Made by a program: the position numbers and the translations under genes
In this document: piece by piece, positions 15,831-22,311 of the stretch
Position numbering within the stretch: position 1 is the stretch's first letter
Layout of the letters: the number at the start of each line of letters is the position of its first letter
The notes under the pieces: model-generated
Database searches by the model: none
Told to the model about the DNA's origin: nothing
Seen by the model: the letters and a program-made list of their open reading frames with translations, nothing else
Assembly: GCA_020833055.1 (NCBI GenBank)
Contig: JAJHQZ010000004.1
Coordinates: 61,541 to 125,540 of the forward strand
Length of the DNA: 64,000 bases
Origin: Candidatus Korarchaeum sp.
GTDB taxonomy: Archaea > Korarchaeota > Korarchaeia > Korarchaeales > Korarchaeaceae
Reading direction: 5' to 3'

Positions 15831-16154
15831 TCACCAAACTTTAGTACCTACCGGTACCTCATCGGGCACCTCTATCAAGTGCACCCTACCGCTATCTTCC
15901 TCAGCTAGCAATAGCATCCCCTGGCTCTCAACTCCCATCATCCTCTTTGGCTTCAAATTGAGGACGAATATCATCTTTTTACCAATTAAGGTTTCAGGAT
16001 CTACTTGGTCAGCTATCCCAGTCACTATCGTCCTTCTCTCGCTCCCGAAATCGACATCCAACTTTATCAGCTTCTTAGAGCCGGATACTCTTTCGGCTGC
16101 CAGCACCTTCCCCACCCTGAGATCGAACTTCCAGAACTCCTCCACATCGAACAT
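15831..16154 (-). CDS. tRNA-binding domain protein (CsaA / MetRS C-terminal type)
   Basis: 107-residue stand-alone OB-fold of the EMAP II/Trbp111 class. Typical blocks are FWKFDLRVGKVLAAERV, SKKLIKLDVDFG, RTIVTGIADQ and the MGVESQGMLLLA segment. Such domains dimerise and bind the outside corner of tRNA, acting as the detached C-terminus of methionyl-tRNA synthetase or as CsaA-like chaperones. It is the last gene of the 15.8-21.5 kb minus-strand operon, four bases after the alcohol dehydrogenase. A link to the operon's enzymes is possible but not shown. Confidence 0.88.
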   Translation of the reverse strand: MFDVEEFWKFDLRVGKVLAAERVSGSKKLIKLDVDFGSERRTIVTGIADQVDPETLIGKKMIFVLNLKPKRMMGVESQGMLLLAEEDSGRVHLIEVPDEVPVGTKVW

Positions 16155-16158
16155 GAGA

Positions 16159-17184
16159 TCACCTCGGCAGGATAACTATCTTTCCAAACATCTCGCTCCT
16201 CTCCATCCTCTCATGAGCCTTCCTAACTTCCTCAAGCTTGAATACAGAATCTATGACTGGTTTGAGCTTCCCCCTCTCGAAGAACTTCAGTACTTCTATC
16301 AGCTCAGCCCTGCTCCCCATGTAAGAGCCTAATATCCGGAGCTGCTTAGAGAAGACGTATCTTACATCTATATTCGCTTGCTCACCTGAAGTAGCTCCCA
16401 CGCTGACCATCCTGCCCCCCACCCTCAAGCACTTGAGACTGCTCATCCAAGTCTCGCTACCCACTGAGTCTACGACTACATCCACTCCCTCTCCAGTGAG
16501 TTCCTTCACTCTAGCGATGACACCCTCCTTCTTCCTGTTTATCACGTGATCCGCCCCTATCTTATAAGCCCTCTCTACCTTCCAATCATCCCCAACAGTT
16601 GCTATAACTTTGGCTCCGAGGAGCTTCGCTATCTGTATCGATGATATGCCTATGCCACTCCCAGCACCCCATATGAGGACCCACTCATCTTCCCTCACAT
16701 CAGCGAGAGTCCTGAGCATGTGCCAAGATGTGAGGAAGACTAAAGGAACTGATGCCGCTTCTTCGAAACTCAGACTCGCTGGCTTCTTGAGTATCGCCCT
16801 CTCAGGATGTGATGTCAGCTCAGCGTAACCACCATCGACGTGGTAGCCGGGCATCTTATACTGCTTGCACATACTCTCCCTACCGCTCAAGCAGTACTCG
16901 CACTTCCCGCAGCCGTAACCGGGGGAGACTATGACCTCCTCCCCAACCTTGACATCGCTCACGCCACTCCCAACTTCCTTAACGATGCCCGAGATATCCG
17001 AGCCCAGTATCCTCGGTAGAGTCGCCCCTCTCACTCCTTTCCTCACCCAGATGTCTAAATGATTCATAGCGACTGCTTTGACCTCAACTAGGACGTCATT
17101 AGGGCCTATCTTAGGGTCAGGATAATCCTCCTCGAACTCCAGTACCTCGGGACCCCCGTGCTCGCGTATCACCACAGCCCTCAA
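16159..17184 (-). CDS. Zinc-containing alcohol dehydrogenase (MDR family), copy 1
   Basis: 341-residue medium-chain NAD(P)H-dependent dehydrogenase. The GroES-like N-terminal domain has the structural zinc lobe CGKCEYCLSGRESMC. The nucleotide-binding site is IWGAGSGIGISSIQIAKLLGA. The catalytic-zinc cysteine position near residue 38 reads as NHLDIWVRKG rather than C-G-T-D, so this copy probably lacks the catalytic zinc and resembles quinone-oxidoreductase or crotonyl-CoA-type MDR members while keeping the structural zinc. Sixth gene of the minus-strand operon, 38 bases after the small membrane protein. Confidence 0.85.
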   Translation of the reverse strand: MRAVVIREHGGPEVLEFEEDYPDPKIGPNDVLVEVKAVAMNHLDIWVRKGVRGATLPRILGSDISGIVKEVGSGVSDVKVGEEVIVSPGYGCGKCEYCLSGRESMCKQYKMPGYHVDGGYAELTSHPERAILKKPASLSFEEAASVPLVFLTSWHMLRTLADVREDEWVLIWGAGSGIGISSIQIAKLLGAKVIATVGDDWKVERAYKIGADHVINRKKEGVIARVKELTGEGVDVVVDSVGSETWMSSLKCLRVGGRMVSVGATSGEQANIDVRYVFSKQLRILGSYMGSRAELIEVLKFFERGKLKPVIDSVFKLEEVRKAHERMERSEMFGKIVILPR

Positions 17185-17222
17185 TAGCGACCCCTAGATC
17201 CATGAGGGGGATCTATTAAACC

Positions 17223-17498
17223 TCATAGGTAGGGGTAGAGGGCCCCTATGACTAGGAGTATGAGTAGTGCGAGGAGGACCCATTTGATTAGCCCCGCTGC
17301 TTTCTCTATGAGCACTATGAATATCATGAGCTCTATTATGAAAGTCATAGCGTTAGCGGCATCTCCCTTTATGCCTATCTGATTCATTATGGGCACTATT
17401 ATCGCTTTGAAGAGTTGATCGAGCCAGCTCGCTAACTTCAATACGATCTCTATTATGAACTTCACAGCTGAGACGAGATCCGAGCTCCCCTCCAACAT
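17223..17498 (-). CDS. Small membrane protein of unknown function
   Basis: 91 residues. An amphipathic or hydrophobic N-terminal half (KFIIEIVLKLASWLDQLFKAIIVP) is followed by two strong membrane helices (MTFIIELMIFIVLIEKAAG and WVLLALLILLVIGALYPYL). No family recognised. It lies 11 bases after the GNAT gene in the same operon and could anchor one of the operon's enzymes at the membrane, but that is inference only. Confidence 0.65.
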   Translation of the reverse strand: MLEGSSDLVSAVKFIIEIVLKLASWLDQLFKAIIVPIMNQIGIKGDAANAMTFIIELMIFIVLIEKAAGLIKWVLLALLILLVIGALYPYL

Positions 17499-17509
17499 CG
17501 GGTAACCAC

Positions 17510-18049
17510 TTACCGATACATAAATAAAGGTTCCGCTCGTTCAGGCATCAGCCTCTTGCTCATCAGATGCCTCCTCGGAGCATATCCCATCCTCTCATAC
17601 CACTCAATTGCCTCTAAATTATCCGCCTCGACTGCTAGCATGACCTCCTTGACCCCCCACTCCCTGCAGGTCTCCTCAGCCATCCGGAGTAGCTTGCTCC
17701 CTATCCCCTTCCCCCTCAGGTCCTCTCTAACTTCTATATCGTATATGTAGCCCACGGGTACGAAGTGGACCGTATCTATCCTCATGCCAACCCAGACAAC
17801 TCCCACTATCTCGCCGTCAGCGTAAGCAGCTATCATCCTGTTCCTCATGTTAGCTCTGTAGAGCGAGTACACTACCTCCCTATGCCTCCTCAGATAACCC
17901 TCGTATCCAAGTTCCATCTTCTCCTCATCAGTTAGGAAATCCCAGCTTATCTTAGCATCGAATTTTATGTATTCCTCTATCTCCTCAGGCCCCAGATCCC
18001 TAAACTCTATCGCTACAGCCCCAATTCCTCTCTCCCTACTCTTACCCAC
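17510..18049 (-). CDS. GNAT-family N-acetyltransferase
   Basis: Acetyl-CoA-dependent acyltransferase. The central acetyl-CoA-binding motif A is IYDIEVREDLRGKGIGSKLL (R-G-x-G-I-G), followed by AVEADNLEAIEWYERMGY, the classic motif B with the catalytic tyrosine region. 179 residues is normal. Its start codon lies inside the 3' end of the MurL-like gene (37-base overlap), so the two are tightly linked. It may acetylate the amino-acid or sugar product of that operon, or be a RimI-like protein acetyltransferase. The sequence alone does not decide. Confidence 0.85.
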   Translation of the reverse strand: MGKSRERGIGAVAIEFRDLGPEEIEEYIKFDAKISWDFLTDEEKMELGYEGYLRRHREVVYSLYRANMRNRMIAAYADGEIVGVVWVGMRIDTVHFVPVGYIYDIEVREDLRGKGIGSKLLRMAEETCREWGVKEVMLAVEADNLEAIEWYERMGYAPRRHLMSKRLMPERAEPLFMYR

Positions 18050-19455
18050 TTCCCATCCCTCAGAATGGAATATCCATTCACATATTCCTCAATTATATTA
18101 AAAACTTTTCTTCTTAGCTCAGGATATGGAATATGATCTATCCTAGCAGTTACATCGTTGAACCTCACTGTCTCCACTTCGGGATGAGGACGGGCCCTGG
18201 GGAGCTTAACCCCGAGCCTCTCGCTCATGAGGTACAGTGAGTGCTCTAACTCATCCTCATCCAACCTGTACTTCCCAGTTTCAACGTGCTCCACTATGTC
18301 GCTCAGCTCATCCCCGTAACCTATCATCTTCGGATCTATCCCATTAGCCAGCAGGAAGATCCTTATCCCTATGCATTTATTACAGCTCCCGCATGGCCTC
18401 AGCTCCCCGCTAGCATACCTAGGAGTATGGCAGCTCATCTGAAGCTTCATGATATCTTTATACCTCCTGTAGAGGATTCTCTGTACTATCAATCCGGAGA
18501 TAGATCTTATTGGGGACCATTGCTTTATTCCAAGCCCCCTCTCCTTGAACCAATTCGTCATGTAATCCTCGAAATCTTGGGATTGGTCGTAAACCGCGTT
18601 ATAATGCTTTATCCCCTTGAAATAAGAGGGAACTGAGGATGGATCATCGTACTCGTTCCCGAAGATTATGTTCCCTATACCCCTCCTCATCATGATCGGG
18701 AGGAAGGAGAAAGCCCAGTGCTCGAACCAGAAGAGCCTTATCGGATATATCTCCTTCGTCTTCTTCCTGAAACCTTTGACGAGGATCCTCATGTTCGACT
18801 CTATGAAGTTGAATAATCTATCTACGTTGCTCCAGACCCTGCTCGTCCTCGGTTCCTCAGCCCTGAAGTACCTGTATGCCTTCAGTGAGACGTGCCAGTG
18901 CCTCCCGCTCTCATTGAAGAAGAAGGGATGGACTTCGCACCCAGCTTCCTTCAGGAGCATGAAGGAGAGGAGGCTATCTTTCCCCCCGGAGACCATGACA
19001 CCGCATTTCAACTCATCCCCCGAGTAATCGAGGACCGTAGATCCTATCTTAGCATTAACTTCAGCTTTCGGGCTAGCATCCTCGGGCCTCAAGCTCTCGG
19101 GATCCGGTATGAACTCATCCTTGATGAGACCGGTCCTCTTGACTATCCTATTGACGAATATATCCCTAGCAGTTATCTCGCTCATATCCATGAAGAACTT
19201 TAAGTCTAACTCGTTTATTGGGAATTCTATATCAATTTCTTTCGTAAATAATGTGTAATTTATCGCGGGAACTATGCTTATCAACGCTGCTATCTCCTCG
19301 ATACCCTCTATATCCCTTATACTCCCCTCGTACACCTCCATGAGATCGTACTCCCTCCTGACGCCGTCTACCTCTAGCTCATAAGTAGCTAGTATAGCTC
19401 TATCCTTCACCCTCAGGTTCCCTATCCTTATCTTATCGAAGCAGATGAGGTTCAA
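18013..19455 (-). CDS. MurL-like PP-loop ATPase
   Basis: 480 residues. An N-terminal beta-rich domain (about 1-125) is followed by a PP-loop pyrophosphatase core with VSGGKDSLLS at 155-164, the site that adenylates a substrate carboxylate or base with AMP release. IIFGNEYDDPSS sits at about 263-274, and a zinc-type cysteine set C342, C355, C358, C361 (SCH...PCGSCNKC) follows. The order beta domain, SGGKDS, (S/G)NE, then CxxCxKC agrees with what I recall of bacterial MurL, the UDP-MurNAc-L-Ala-L-Glu epimerase; the cysteines also recall QueC. Archaea of this kind have no murein, so the substrate must be different. Overlaps the DUF1611 gene by four bases (ATGA). Confidence 0.7.
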   Translation of the reverse strand: MNLICFDKIRIGNLRVKDRAILATYELEVDGVRREYDLMEVYEGSIRDIEGIEEIAALISIVPAINYTLFTKEIDIEFPINELDLKFFMDMSEITARDIFVNRIVKRTGLIKDEFIPDPESLRPEDASPKAEVNAKIGSTVLDYSGDELKCGVMVSGGKDSLLSFMLLKEAGCEVHPFFFNESGRHWHVSLKAYRYFRAEEPRTSRVWSNVDRLFNFIESNMRILVKGFRKKTKEIYPIRLFWFEHWAFSFLPIMMRRGIGNIIFGNEYDDPSSVPSYFKGIKHYNAVYDQSQDFEDYMTNWFKERGLGIKQWSPIRSISGLIVQRILYRRYKDIMKLQMSCHTPRYASGELRPCGSCNKCIGIRIFLLANGIDPKMIGYGDELSDIVEHVETGKYRLDEDELEHSLYLMSERLGVKLPRARPHPEVETVRFNDVTARIDHIPYPELRRKVFNIIEEYVNGYSILRDGKWVRVGREELGL

Positions 19456-20534
19456 CCCTCCACCTCCTTGACTATAGCATCGACTATCCTACCCACGCCA
19501 TGGATCAGGGGAGCGCACGCCACTATTCCGTACTTGGCCTCCACTTCCTTGACGTAACTCTCCACAGCATCCTCGCTCATCCCTTCTGTGTTTATAGTGA
19601 TAGCTAGAGGCTTCTTATCCGTCATGACTTCTATTAAGCGTATGTACTTCTCCAATGGTGGCATCGGGAACTCCGGGAAGTCCTCTAGATGCTTCCTCCC
19701 AGGTGCGTGCTGCAGCACTATAGCGTTAGGCGTTAGTAAATTCACTATCTCGAAGCTACCTGGGAACGCCGGATGCAGCAATGAACCCTGGCCGGGGACC
19801 ACTATTACCTTGGGCCTCTCCTCGACGTAAGCCCTCCAGACCTCGTGCTCCAATCCTCCTGGTATGAAATCGTTTATCATAGCATCCAACACTATCCCAT
19901 ATTTAGCTCCCTGCATCCAAGCGGTCTGACCCGTCCCGATGAAAACTGCCTTTATACCCCTCTTATTGAGCTCATCTACTATCATCCAAGCCGTCGTCCT
20001 CTTCCCTATGCAAGCATCAGTCCCCAAGATCACTACTCTGTAAGAATCCACTTCCCTTATCTTCCCAGTATAGAAAAGCTTCATCTTCTGATAGATCTTC
20101 CTGACATCTATTATCTCGACTCCTCTCTCTTTAGATATCTTTGAGAACTCTGGATCATCGCTCAGGAACTCGTGGAGCCCCGATACTATGTTGAGCCCCC
20201 TCTCTATGGCTTCCCTAATGTAGCCCCTGTAATCGGGTGGTAGCATTCCTCCCGCTGTAGCCACACCGACTATCAGCACTTTGATATTAGGCCTCTCACT
20301 CAGAGCTTCATCCAAGCTCCTATAGATCTTTATGCCCCTCCTCTTCCCATCCAGCACTTCACCAGCGTCCATCCCAGCGAACTTACTGTCTATCACACCG
20401 ACTATCCTGTACCTCATGGACTTCCTGACGAGGCCGTGAGCTGTCTTAGCATCGGAAGTATCGTATCTTCCCTCAGCTAATATCAGGGCTTCTGGGACTT
20501 CAGAACCTCCTCCCTGTGACGACTGCCACTGCAT
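19452..20534 (-). CDS. DUF1611 / DgcN-like P-loop protein
   Basis: 360 residues. An N-terminal Rossmann-like part (EALILAEGRYDTSDAKTAHG, GVIDSKFAG) is followed by a P-loop domain with GTDACIGKRTTAW as the Walker A-like loop at about residues 172-184, then FIGTGQTAWMQG and VPGQGSLLHP. This matches the DUF1611 family. One studied branch, DgcN, N-acetylates D-glutamate in partnership with the dehydratase or epimerase-like DgcA, but no DgcA is here. Its start overlaps the PLP enzyme gene by 35 bases and its stop overlaps the MurL-like gene by four, indicating one functional unit. Substrate unknown. Confidence 0.78.
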   Translation of the reverse strand: MQWQSSQGGGSEVPEALILAEGRYDTSDAKTAHGLVRKSMRYRIVGVIDSKFAGMDAGEVLDGKRRGIKIYRSLDEALSERPNIKVLIVGVATAGGMLPPDYRGYIREAIERGLNIVSGLHEFLSDDPEFSKISKERGVEIIDVRKIYQKMKLFYTGKIREVDSYRVVILGTDACIGKRTTAWMIVDELNKRGIKAVFIGTGQTAWMQGAKYGIVLDAMINDFIPGGLEHEVWRAYVEERPKVIVVPGQGSLLHPAFPGSFEIVNLLTPNAIVLQHAPGRKHLEDFPEFPMPPLEKYIRLIEVMTDKKPLAITINTEGMSEDAVESYVKEVEAKYGIVACAPLIHGVGRIVDAIVKEVEG

Positions 20535-21459
20535 TCTCGAAATATCCCCCGAACTCTAGATATCTCTCTATAGCCCCTAAGGAGGAGGAAGACGCTGGAA
20601 GAGGGTCTATACCTTCCATTCTAAGCTCCTCAGAGAGTTGAAGCAGTTCATCATCGTAGAATTCGAAAGCTAGACCACCGCTCCTCCTTATAGCTTCCAG
20701 AGCGTACTCACCATCGAAAGCCTTTATCGAGACCAATGGCTCATTATACTCAGTTTCCCTCACTTCATCCTCCCTCAGGGGGACTAGTTCCTCAGAGCCC
20801 CTCCTCAGAGTTTCAGCTATCTGATTCCCCAGTCTCGTAGTCGCCCCTAGCATCACTGGGAGCTTCCTAGAGATCCCCATATCCAGCATCTCGCGGAAGC
20901 CCATGTAGATCCCAGCTAGAGTGGTGCCGTTTCCCATTGGGACGGAGACTAAATCAGGGACTGAGCCCAGGGCTGCTACTATCTCATAAGCGATAGCCTT
21001 GAATGACTCGAGAGCCACTCTGCCGTTAACGCTCCCCGGATTGGAATCGTAGTATCCATATTTCATAGCATCTAGCACGCTCCTCTCCACAGCGTCCTCG
21101 TAACTACCATCTACGTAAACTATCTCAGCATTGTACTTCCTCATCTCCCTAATCCTACCATTGGTGTAACGCGATGGTACATATATCACGGCCCTAATCC
21201 CGTGGAGGTTAGCGAAGTAAGCTAGGGAGACCCCGAAGTTACCGCAGGTGCCCACGGTCACAGTATCGTATCCCTGCTCTATAGCCCTCCTCACGTGCAC
21301 GTAAGCCGCTCTGTCCTTTTGGGTCCCCGTGGGGTTGTTTCCCTCCCATTTGATGTATATCTTCCTCCATCCACGAGCTATCGGGATTTTCCTCGCTCTA
21401 AAAAGAGTCCTGGGGAACTTGAACTCCTCAAGCAAGGTCGCCCGCTGGACCATCTCCAT
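20500..21459 (-). CDS. Threonine-synthase-like PLP enzyme (fold type II)
   Basis: 319 residues. The PLP lysine is K48 in NNPTGTQKDRAA, the cofactor-phosphate and substrate loop is GTCGNFGVSLAYFA, and the glycine-rich phosphate-binding loop is PMGNGTTLAG. This belongs with threonine synthase, cysteate synthase and diaminopropionate ammonia-lyase. It is shorter than a full threonine synthase and lacks neighbouring threonine genes. As first gene of the seven-gene operon it likely makes or breaks the beta-substituted amino acid used by the two ATP-type enzymes that follow. A CCTTTATAA box (minus strand, 21490-21498) lies about 35 bases before the start. Confidence 0.82.
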   Translation of the reverse strand: MEMVQRATLLEEFKFPRTLFRARKIPIARGWRKIYIKWEGNNPTGTQKDRAAYVHVRRAIEQGYDTVTVGTCGNFGVSLAYFANLHGIRAVIYVPSRYTNGRIREMRKYNAEIVYVDGSYEDAVERSVLDAMKYGYYDSNPGSVNGRVALESFKAIAYEIVAALGSVPDLVSVPMGNGTTLAGIYMGFREMLDMGISRKLPVMLGATTRLGNQIAETLRRGSEELVPLREDEVRETEYNEPLVSIKAFDGEYALEAIRRSGGLAFEFYDDELLQLSEELRMEGIDPLPASSSSLGAIERYLEFGGYFENAVAVVTGRRF

Positions 21460-21562: not shown

Positions 21563-21597
21563 CTAAGTGAGTTACGCTCTTGAAAGGTAAAGTGGGC

Positions 21598-22311
21598 ATG
21601 AGGAACGGGAGGCTAGAGTCTCCTTACATCTCCGTCAGGCTTTTGAGCTCCCTAAAGGGTTTTTTCACATTGAAGGAACTTGAATCGAAGCTAGGAATAC
21701 CTTATCAAGTCATATGGCGATACATAAGTCTCAAGAGCACGCCGGAGAAGACCACAGCTAGGAAGATAATAGAGAGGATAGAGAGCTTGAATCTAATAGA
21801 GGAAGCGCTCAAGAGGAATCTGAGGGTAAACAGGTATAATTATATAGAGTCTTGGAGGTTTATGAGCAACTATAAGTTCTTGGAGCTCATGGGCTATGTG
21901 ATATCGAGTTTCGTCGGGGATGAGGAAGTCAACGTGATAATATCCCCGCAGGGGTCATTCCCCCTAGCCTTAATTGCTAGCGATTGGCTCAGAGCGAAGG
22001 CTTTAAGCTGTATGGAGCATGTTAACCTCTCTTTAGAGTCTTACTTGAGGAGCTCATACGTCTCACTCGATAGAGGGGCTGTCGTCGAGCTATACGTACC
22101 TAGTCAGATAGGGGTGGGTGATAAAGTGATCTTAGTGAGGGACATAGTGAAGAACTTGGAATCCCTGGAGGCTATAATGGATATAGTGAGCGATGCGGGA
22201 GCTAAGTTATGGGGGGTCTTCTCAGTGATCTCAGTATCCGATGAATGGGAGAAAAAGCTGGATGACCTCGGCATAGGAAAAAGGATGGCTTTTTACAAGA
22301 TGCCTCGATAG
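21598..22311 (+). CDS. HTH-PRTase (GfcR-like) transcription regulator
   Basis: About 237 residues. The N-terminal winged or lambda-type helix-turn-helix (TLKELESKLGIPYQVIWRYIS, about 23-45) is followed by a phosphoribosyltransferase-like domain (VNVIISPQGSFPLALIASDWL and VILVRDIVKNLESLEAIMDI). In active PRTases and the archaeal regulator GfcR the PRPP loop reads roughly D-D-x-x-T-T-G; here it is VRDIVKNLES, lacking the threonines, so PRPP binding is probably altered or lost. It may sense another nucleotide-like ligand. Divergent from the PLP/DUF1611/MurL-like operon, and so a candidate regulator of it. ATG 21598 follows AGGTAA; a TTG six codons earlier is less likely. Confidence 0.7.
   Translation: MRNGRLESPYISVRLLSSLKGFFTLKELESKLGIPYQVIWRYISLKSTPEKTTARKIIERIESLNLIEEALKRNLRVNRYNYIESWRFMSNYKFLELMGYVISSFVGDEEVNVIISPQGSFPLALIASDWLRAKALSCMEHVNLSLESYLRSSYVSLDRGAVVELYVPSQIGVGDKVILVRDIVKNLESLEAIMDIVSDAGAKLWGVFSVISVSDEWEKKLDDLGIGKRMAFYKMPR

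Follow-up and report, generated by a model that had tools for sequence, protein, structure and literature searches.

A conserved three-gene cassette of archaea and scattered bacteria with a MurL/QatC-class PP-loop enzyme, possibly for an acidic amino-acid metabolite that is D-configured or amide-coupled

A stretch of 64,000 nucleotides from the heat-loving archaeon Candidatus Korarchaeum sp. (contig JAJHQZ010000004.1, positions 61,541-125,540; called the window, to which all coordinates of this locus refer) carries seven tightly packed genes on the minus strand, and the subject of this study is a trio within them. The first member (20500-21459) encodes a threonine-synthase-like enzyme of fold type II that depends on pyridoxal phosphate (PLP), belongs to the PRK06381 subfamily of the PALP family and has Lys48 as the catalytic residue. 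Its gene overlaps by 35 bases with that of a DUF1611 protein (19452-20534), which consists of a Rossmann-like N domain and a P-loop C domain, and the latter overlaps by 4 bases with the gene of a 480-residue PP-loop ATP pyrophosphatase of the MurL/QatC class (18013-19455), referred to below as the PP protein. A GNAT acetyltransferase gene (17510-18049; PF00583, 2e-22) follows with a 37-base overlap. The seven packed genes, their overlaps and the motifs named in an earlier first-pass annotation (K48 of the PALP and SGGKDS at 156-161, FGNE and CxxC-x2-C of the PP protein) proved exact to the base; a sequence check placed FGNE at residues 265-268 and the cysteines at C355, C358 and C361.

The conserved unit is the PALP–DUF1611–PP trio, to which the GNAT gene is added in Korarchaeia. 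Relatives of the PP protein were found with an alignment as query, while a single-sequence query for related loci gave none. Full-length members were present in 56 of 292 Thermoplasmatota genomes, 16 of 300 Thermoproteota genomes and 3 of 95 genomes of NC10 (Methylomirabilota). At 52 of the 59 places in the Thermoplasmatota set where a PP gene occurs, PALP, DUF1611 and PP genes follow each other in this order on the same strand. A PRK06381 protein scoring over the cut-off was encoded in 53 of the 56 Thermoplasmatota genomes with a PP gene, and two genomes had PRK06381 without PP (Fisher p ~6e-52, a value that ignores shared ancestry). The order PALP–DUF1611–PP–GNAT is retained among the Korarchaeum relatives; the trio without the genes downstream of it was seen in Methanodesulfokora, other Thermoproteota, Thermofilum, Thermoplasmatota, NC10, Acidobacteria and one planctomycete, and a Caldiserica contig carries DUF1611–PP–GNAT. 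The survey for the same trio suggested by the first-pass annotation thus found it in many genomes of two domains, and its recurrence in the same order in dozens of genomes is far more than chance. Within the genus of the window, the PP gene was found in 6 of 16 genomes and was missing from several nearly complete ones; this patchy distribution marks the cassette as accessory, mobile or frequently lost. The PP protein had no match in the plasmid and phage collections. At three Thermofilaceae loci (L020, L021, L022), PP and GNAT genes occur with no PALP or DUF1611 gene nearby, and a gene for an Ntn-hydrolase (asparaginase-like) is divergent from PP. A description of the trio was not found in the open literature searched on DUF1611, COG3367, DgcN, MurL and QatC/QueC, and a 2026 survey of the QueC family makes no mention of MurL, DUF1611 or threonine synthase. 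Although the component families are already known, they may together form a new pathway.

The three remaining minus-strand genes encode a 91-residue membrane protein (17223-17498, 11 bases from the GNAT gene), a zinc alcohol dehydrogenase (16159-17184, 38 bases further) and a MetRS-C-type tRNA-binding protein (15831-16154, after a gap of 4 bases). They lie outside the conserved unit, because in one Korarchaeum relative (genome G012, locus L012) a stretch of ~4 kb that carries two genes on the opposite strand lies between them and the GNAT gene, a split that rules them out as cassette members; outside Korarchaeum they are not found beside the trio. The operon of five to seven genes proposed in the first-pass annotation is therefore narrowed to the trio, with GNAT in Korarchaeia, and the other genes are bystanders.

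The PP protein comprises an N-terminal extension, the SGGKDS motif (156-161), an NE motif (267-268), a cysteine site (C342/C355/C358/C361) and a C-terminal extension. In the Pfam and NCBIfam scan it matched no Pfam family above the cut-off; no sequence match was obtained in the PDB, where the family profile gave weak PP-loop matches at most. MurL was the only model of a characterised enzyme to match the family, with an E value of 2.4e-4 for the window protein and matches to 13 of 14 relatives (best 4.3e-9). The window protein scored 19.8 bits against the MurL equivalog NF041275 and stayed below its cut-off of 700. To compare the families directly, we built a MurL alignment from the annotated murL of Xanthomonas sacchari, an Acidobacteria-phylum MurL whose gene adjoins that of a MurD-family ligase, and further sequences. 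With hhalign, the PP profile aligned to it across residues 150-441 (E 1.6e-12), and the pairwise comparison with the annotated Xanthomonas MurL gave E=2e-5. Thirteen nearly invariant PP residues are common to at least four of the five MurL rows (G157, G158, S161, R213, P238, E268, S314, S341, C342, C355, C358, K360 and C361), so that the PP-loop core, the NE motif and the cysteine site are all represented. From these comparisons the PP protein is classed as a true but remote homologue of MurL, below the level of MurL proper, in line with the MurL-like assignment of the first-pass annotation. Genuine MurL genes were seen at two loci (L092, 5652-7013; L117, 1791-3146), where a MurD-type gene adjoins and whose products share the core motifs with the archaeal PP family; no Mur ligase gene lies beside the cassette in the inspected neighbourhoods, and no MurL over the cut-off was found in 247 genomes of the Acidobacteria phylum. 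The profile test against a tRNA- or base-modifying PP-loop family, also suggested at the outset, gave no better match than MurL: QueC (PF06508) reached 15.3 bits with a gathering cut-off of 22, and the YPDC motif, by which QueC recognises 7-carboxy-7-deazaguanine (CDG), occurs in 0 of 51 PP members tested. The PP protein is thus part of the wider family that includes MurL, QatC and QueC, but by score cut-off or gene context it is none of the three. Distant PP-loop paralogues (~28% identity) were noted at two further loci (L110, 833-2197; L111, 5445-6809) next to a radical-SAM-like gene and genes for ABC transporters.

An AlphaFold2 model of the PP protein (predicted local distance difference test (pLDDT) score 90.2, predicted template modelling (pTM) score 0.90) was compared with solved folds. 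The best match was QatC (9y02_B) with a Z score of 13.8 over 308 aligned residues and a root-mean-square deviation (rmsd) of 4.6 Å, spanning model residues 6-420; QueC (2pg3; Z 13.2, 212 aligned residues, rmsd 4.0) and Cap9 (Z 12.9) were effectively tied with it. The model therefore has a core fold of the QueC class, and QatC was alone among the best matches in covering the N-terminal extension as well as the C-terminal one. The structure prediction proposed in the first-pass annotation confirmed the QueC/QatC class; it did not single out MurL chemistry, since the amide-forming QueC and Cap9 are equally near. A MurL model computed from two sequences reached a pLDDT of 40, and the kinship of PP and MurL is accordingly drawn from sequence. 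Because the core motifs of MurL match the archaeal PP family, which is itself QatC-like in fold, MurL itself probably falls into the QueC/QatC class, a connection that did not appear in the literature consulted on these families.

The window PALP matched the PALP family at 1.8e-49 and the PRK06381 model (NF004996, 'threonine synthase') at 456 bits, well over the cut-off of 266; the trio PALPs of NC10 and Thermoplasmatota scored 394-425 bits with the same model. A canonical ThrC (290 bits) is encoded elsewhere in the genome of the window, next to homoserine kinase, and for this reason the PALP of the cassette is an additional enzyme that has diverged, and not the housekeeping threonine synthase. 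The trio PALPs carry the signatures TCGN[FY]G and D[AS]NPG[GS] where ThrC has STGN and NSxNPxRLEGQKT. The Asn-Ser/Arg stretch of ThrC, which is lost in the trio PALPs, binds the substrate phosphate. The substrate of the trio PALPs likely differs from that of ThrC, and the replaced stretch and the separate ThrC argue against a conversion of phosphohomoserine to threonine. In a comparison with L032, the PALPs at loci L071, L073, L075 and L105-L109 share 58-66% identity with bacterial cassette PALPs, and the figure for PP and DUF1611 is only ~37-48%, which suggests that one cassette gene has been replaced at these loci.

In the DUF1611 protein of the window, both domains scored over their cut-offs (DUF1611_C, PF07755, 1.2e-65, 221 bits; DUF1611_N, PF17396, 6e-32, 110 bits). 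The best-known relative, DgcN, is part of a pathway for D-glutamate utilisation (PMC12363236, PMC10845958). Core residues are common to trio and non-trio DUF1611 proteins, including GTD..GK, TGQT, GQ, H121, D143, R145, R280 and the P-loop. In a tree, a branch with 100/97 support set the trio proteins apart from the sampled DgcN-type proteins. At least 6 of 12 non-trio Thermoplasmatota DUF1611 genes lie close to an epimerase-family gene, an arrangement like that of DgcN–DgcA.

Genes that accompany the trio in other genomes give further hints. An enolase-family epimerase resembling L-Ala-D/L-Glu epimerases follows PP in NC10, Acidobacteria and the planctomycete; the PP proteins of Acidobacteria and the planctomycete also carry a fused creatininase domain. 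At five loci in archaea (L071, L073, L075, L109, L152), genes for an epimerase and an M14 carboxypeptidase lie near the cassette, the latter called from a weak Pfam match that exceeds the cut-off in L109 and from similarity to L109 in the other four. All cassette-linked epimerases retain KxK, the second Lys, the metal ligands and the DxD motif, which in L-Ala-D/L-Glu epimerases binds dipeptides at their free amino terminus. The Korarchaeum genome encodes an epimerase at another locus, 43% identical to that of NC10. A D-aminoacyl-tRNA deacylase gene (PF04414) lies beside the trio at nine Thermoplasmatota loci, in genomes of the Thermoplasmatales type, upstream in L078, L080, L081, L083, L085, L086, L115 and L116 and on the other side in L082. 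Each of these clues is circumstantial; jointly they suggest amino acids that are D-configured or peptide-bonded, and the D-glutamate theme of the first-pass annotation gains support from them. Its proposal of GNAT as a core partner did not hold, because the subfamilies differ between lineages and the gene is often absent. GNAT follows PP on the same strand in Korarchaeia, Thermofilaceae and some others (L010-L014, L016, L020-L022, L097). A RimI-like subfamily is encoded convergently in Thermoplasmatota and some Thermoproteota, and another subfamily occurs in Korarchaeia and Thermofilaceae; these differences in subfamily and strand, together with its frequent absence, rule GNAT out as a core member. 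A helix-turn-helix (HTH)-phosphoribosyltransferase gene (21580-22311, plus strand; PRK08558-like, 8e-32) is divergent from the trio in the window. Across loci L010-L014, L097, L023, L098-L101 and L104, it has this arrangement in Korarchaeum and L097 and lies convergently downstream in Thermofilaceae; because of the linkage in two arrangements it is a candidate regulator, which may act on the trio.

Taken together, we propose that the trio acts in biosynthesis, as a conserved cassette whose product is a small acidic metabolite resembling an amino acid or a peptide (probability about 0.38). The PRK06381 enzyme would supply an amino acid through a beta/gamma replacement that depends on PLP, and the DUF1611 protein would N-acylate an acidic amino acid in the way DgcN acetylates D-glutamate. 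The PP protein would then adenylate the carboxylate of the N-acylated residue, converting ATP to AMP and pyrophosphate, and, as MurL does, invert the alpha-carbon at the expense of ATP, so that the L residue becomes a D-configured product. MurL itself uses one ATP, forms AMP and works from L to D only, on a C-terminal Glu (PMC8788868). In some lineages the dipeptide epimerase and the M14 carboxypeptidase might recycle the product and GNAT might modify it. The observed gene order, conservation, homology, domain architecture and ATP-site and cysteine motifs are the basis from which we infer the order of the steps, every substrate, the epimerisation outcome and the recycling. Several observations weigh against this proposal. 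Trio DUF1611 proteins stay far below the DgcN cut-off of 480 bits (NF041892; 183 for the window, 138 for NC10 and 174 for Thermoplasmatota), and they are marked by W206, Q208, N221, P258 and E262; a non-trio protein likewise fails to reach that cut-off, at 263 bits. One genome with the trio (G027) has no epimerase-type enolase-family gene, just weak enolase-like matches, so that the epimerase is optional. The deacylase adjacency may be a D-amino-acid safeguard or plain synteny. Finally, the fold neighbours tied with QatC include the amide- or nitrile-forming QueC and the protein-conjugating Cap9, and adenylation need not end in epimerisation.

The last point leads to a possible, more tentative explanation, in which the PP protein is an amide-forming ligase like QueC or Cap9 that adenylates the carboxylate of what DUF1611 produces and links it to an amine, for which the amino acid from the PALP is a candidate; the dipeptide-like compound so formed would pass on to a dipeptide epimerase or an M14 peptidase. 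The tied Z scores, the agreement with QatC in both extensions, in SGGxDS at 156-161 and in the four-cysteine zinc site (PMC13279940), and the dipeptide-type DxD epimerases adjoining the cassette in NC10 and some archaea are all compatible with it, but MurL is the one characterised-enzyme model that matches the family well, and QueC fails on both score and YPDC. We regard as unlikely a catabolic cassette that salvages D-amino-acid peptides such as bacterial cell-wall fragments, with DUF1611 and the epimerase acting on D-Glu and the PALP as a lyase: the place of DgcN in D-Glu utilisation and the M14, epimerase and deacylase neighbours would fit, whereas the core trio includes no peptidase or transporter, most trios have no adjoining epimerase and peptidase, and an ATP-consuming enzyme of the L-to-D-only MurL type is an odd choice for breaking down D-residues. 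Very improbable is a QueC-like role in making a 7-deazaguanine-type product for tRNA or protein modification. Apart from the fold, it could draw on the lack of a full-length canonical QueC in the Korarchaeum genomes G000, G010 and G012 (best 32 bits over 65 positions), but canonical QueC is present in addition in trio-bearing Thermoplasmatota and NC10 genomes, and the partners are amino-acid enzymes and not QueD or QueE; CDG chemistry was rejected for the PP protein in view of that separate QueC and the absence of YPDC. Least credible is ordinary threonine synthesis beside unrelated genes, as the NCBIfam label of PRK06381 would have it, since it is contradicted by the conserved cassette with its strict linkage across two domains, and by the canonical ThrC pair and the replaced NS..R stretch described above. 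Leaving the choice of chemistry aside, we see an even chance that Thermoplasmatota, Thermoproteota, Korarchaeia and scattered bacteria have an undescribed pathway that uses a new subfamily of MurL/QatC-class PP-loop enzymes and leads to an acidic amino-acid metabolite, either D-configured or coupled through an amide. On balance, the interpretation of the first-pass annotation is supported in part, namely in the MurL homology, the recurrence of the trio and the D-glutamate theme; joint action of the two ATP-type enzymes on a single carboxylate and capping by GNAT stay conjectural.

If such a pathway exists, one enzyme family would unite peptidoglycan epimerases, the phage-defence protein QatC and an archaeal pathway, D-amino-acid or peptide chemistry would occur in archaea that lack murein, and a large set of 'threonine synthases' would need re-annotation. 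The reaction of QatC is unsolved (PMC13279940), and the mechanism of MurL was called unclear in reviews of 2018 and 2021 (PMC5808125, PMC8788868). A third branch of the MurL/QatC family, set in a compact three-gene pathway of many sequenced archaea, offers a tractable route to the chemistry that follows adenylation.

Compared with known systems, the PP protein resembles MurL in the PP-loop, the NE motif, S314, the cysteine site (SC and CxxCxKC) and a similar length and layout. It differs in its score (~20 bits with a cut-off of 700), in SGGKDS where MurL has GGGKDS, in H343 where MurL has Asn, and in being encoded with PALP and DUF1611 and without a MurD2 neighbour. With QatC of the qatABCD anti-phage defence system (PMC13279940), it shares the whole architecture of N extension, QueC core and C extension; SGGxDS lies at 156-161 in QatC, and the zinc cysteines C334/C354/C357/C360 of QatC (PMC13279940) have their counterparts in C342/C355/C358/C361. 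Identity across the aligned region is 14%, genes for QatA, QatB and QatD were not recognised in the inspected PP neighbourhoods, and the neighbours of PP are metabolic. QueC and Cap9 (PF06508) have the core fold and cysteine site in common with the PP protein but lack the N extension, and the PP protein lacks the CDG motif. The DgcN–DgcA pathway of D-glutamate shares with the trio the DUF1611 core and, in some lineages, an epimerase partner, whereas the trio DUF1611 is a separate clade tied to PALP and PP-loop genes. ThrC and the trio PALP, finally, are both fold II PLP enzymes with a catalytic Lys, the latter being a second copy with the motifs TCGN and DxNPG.

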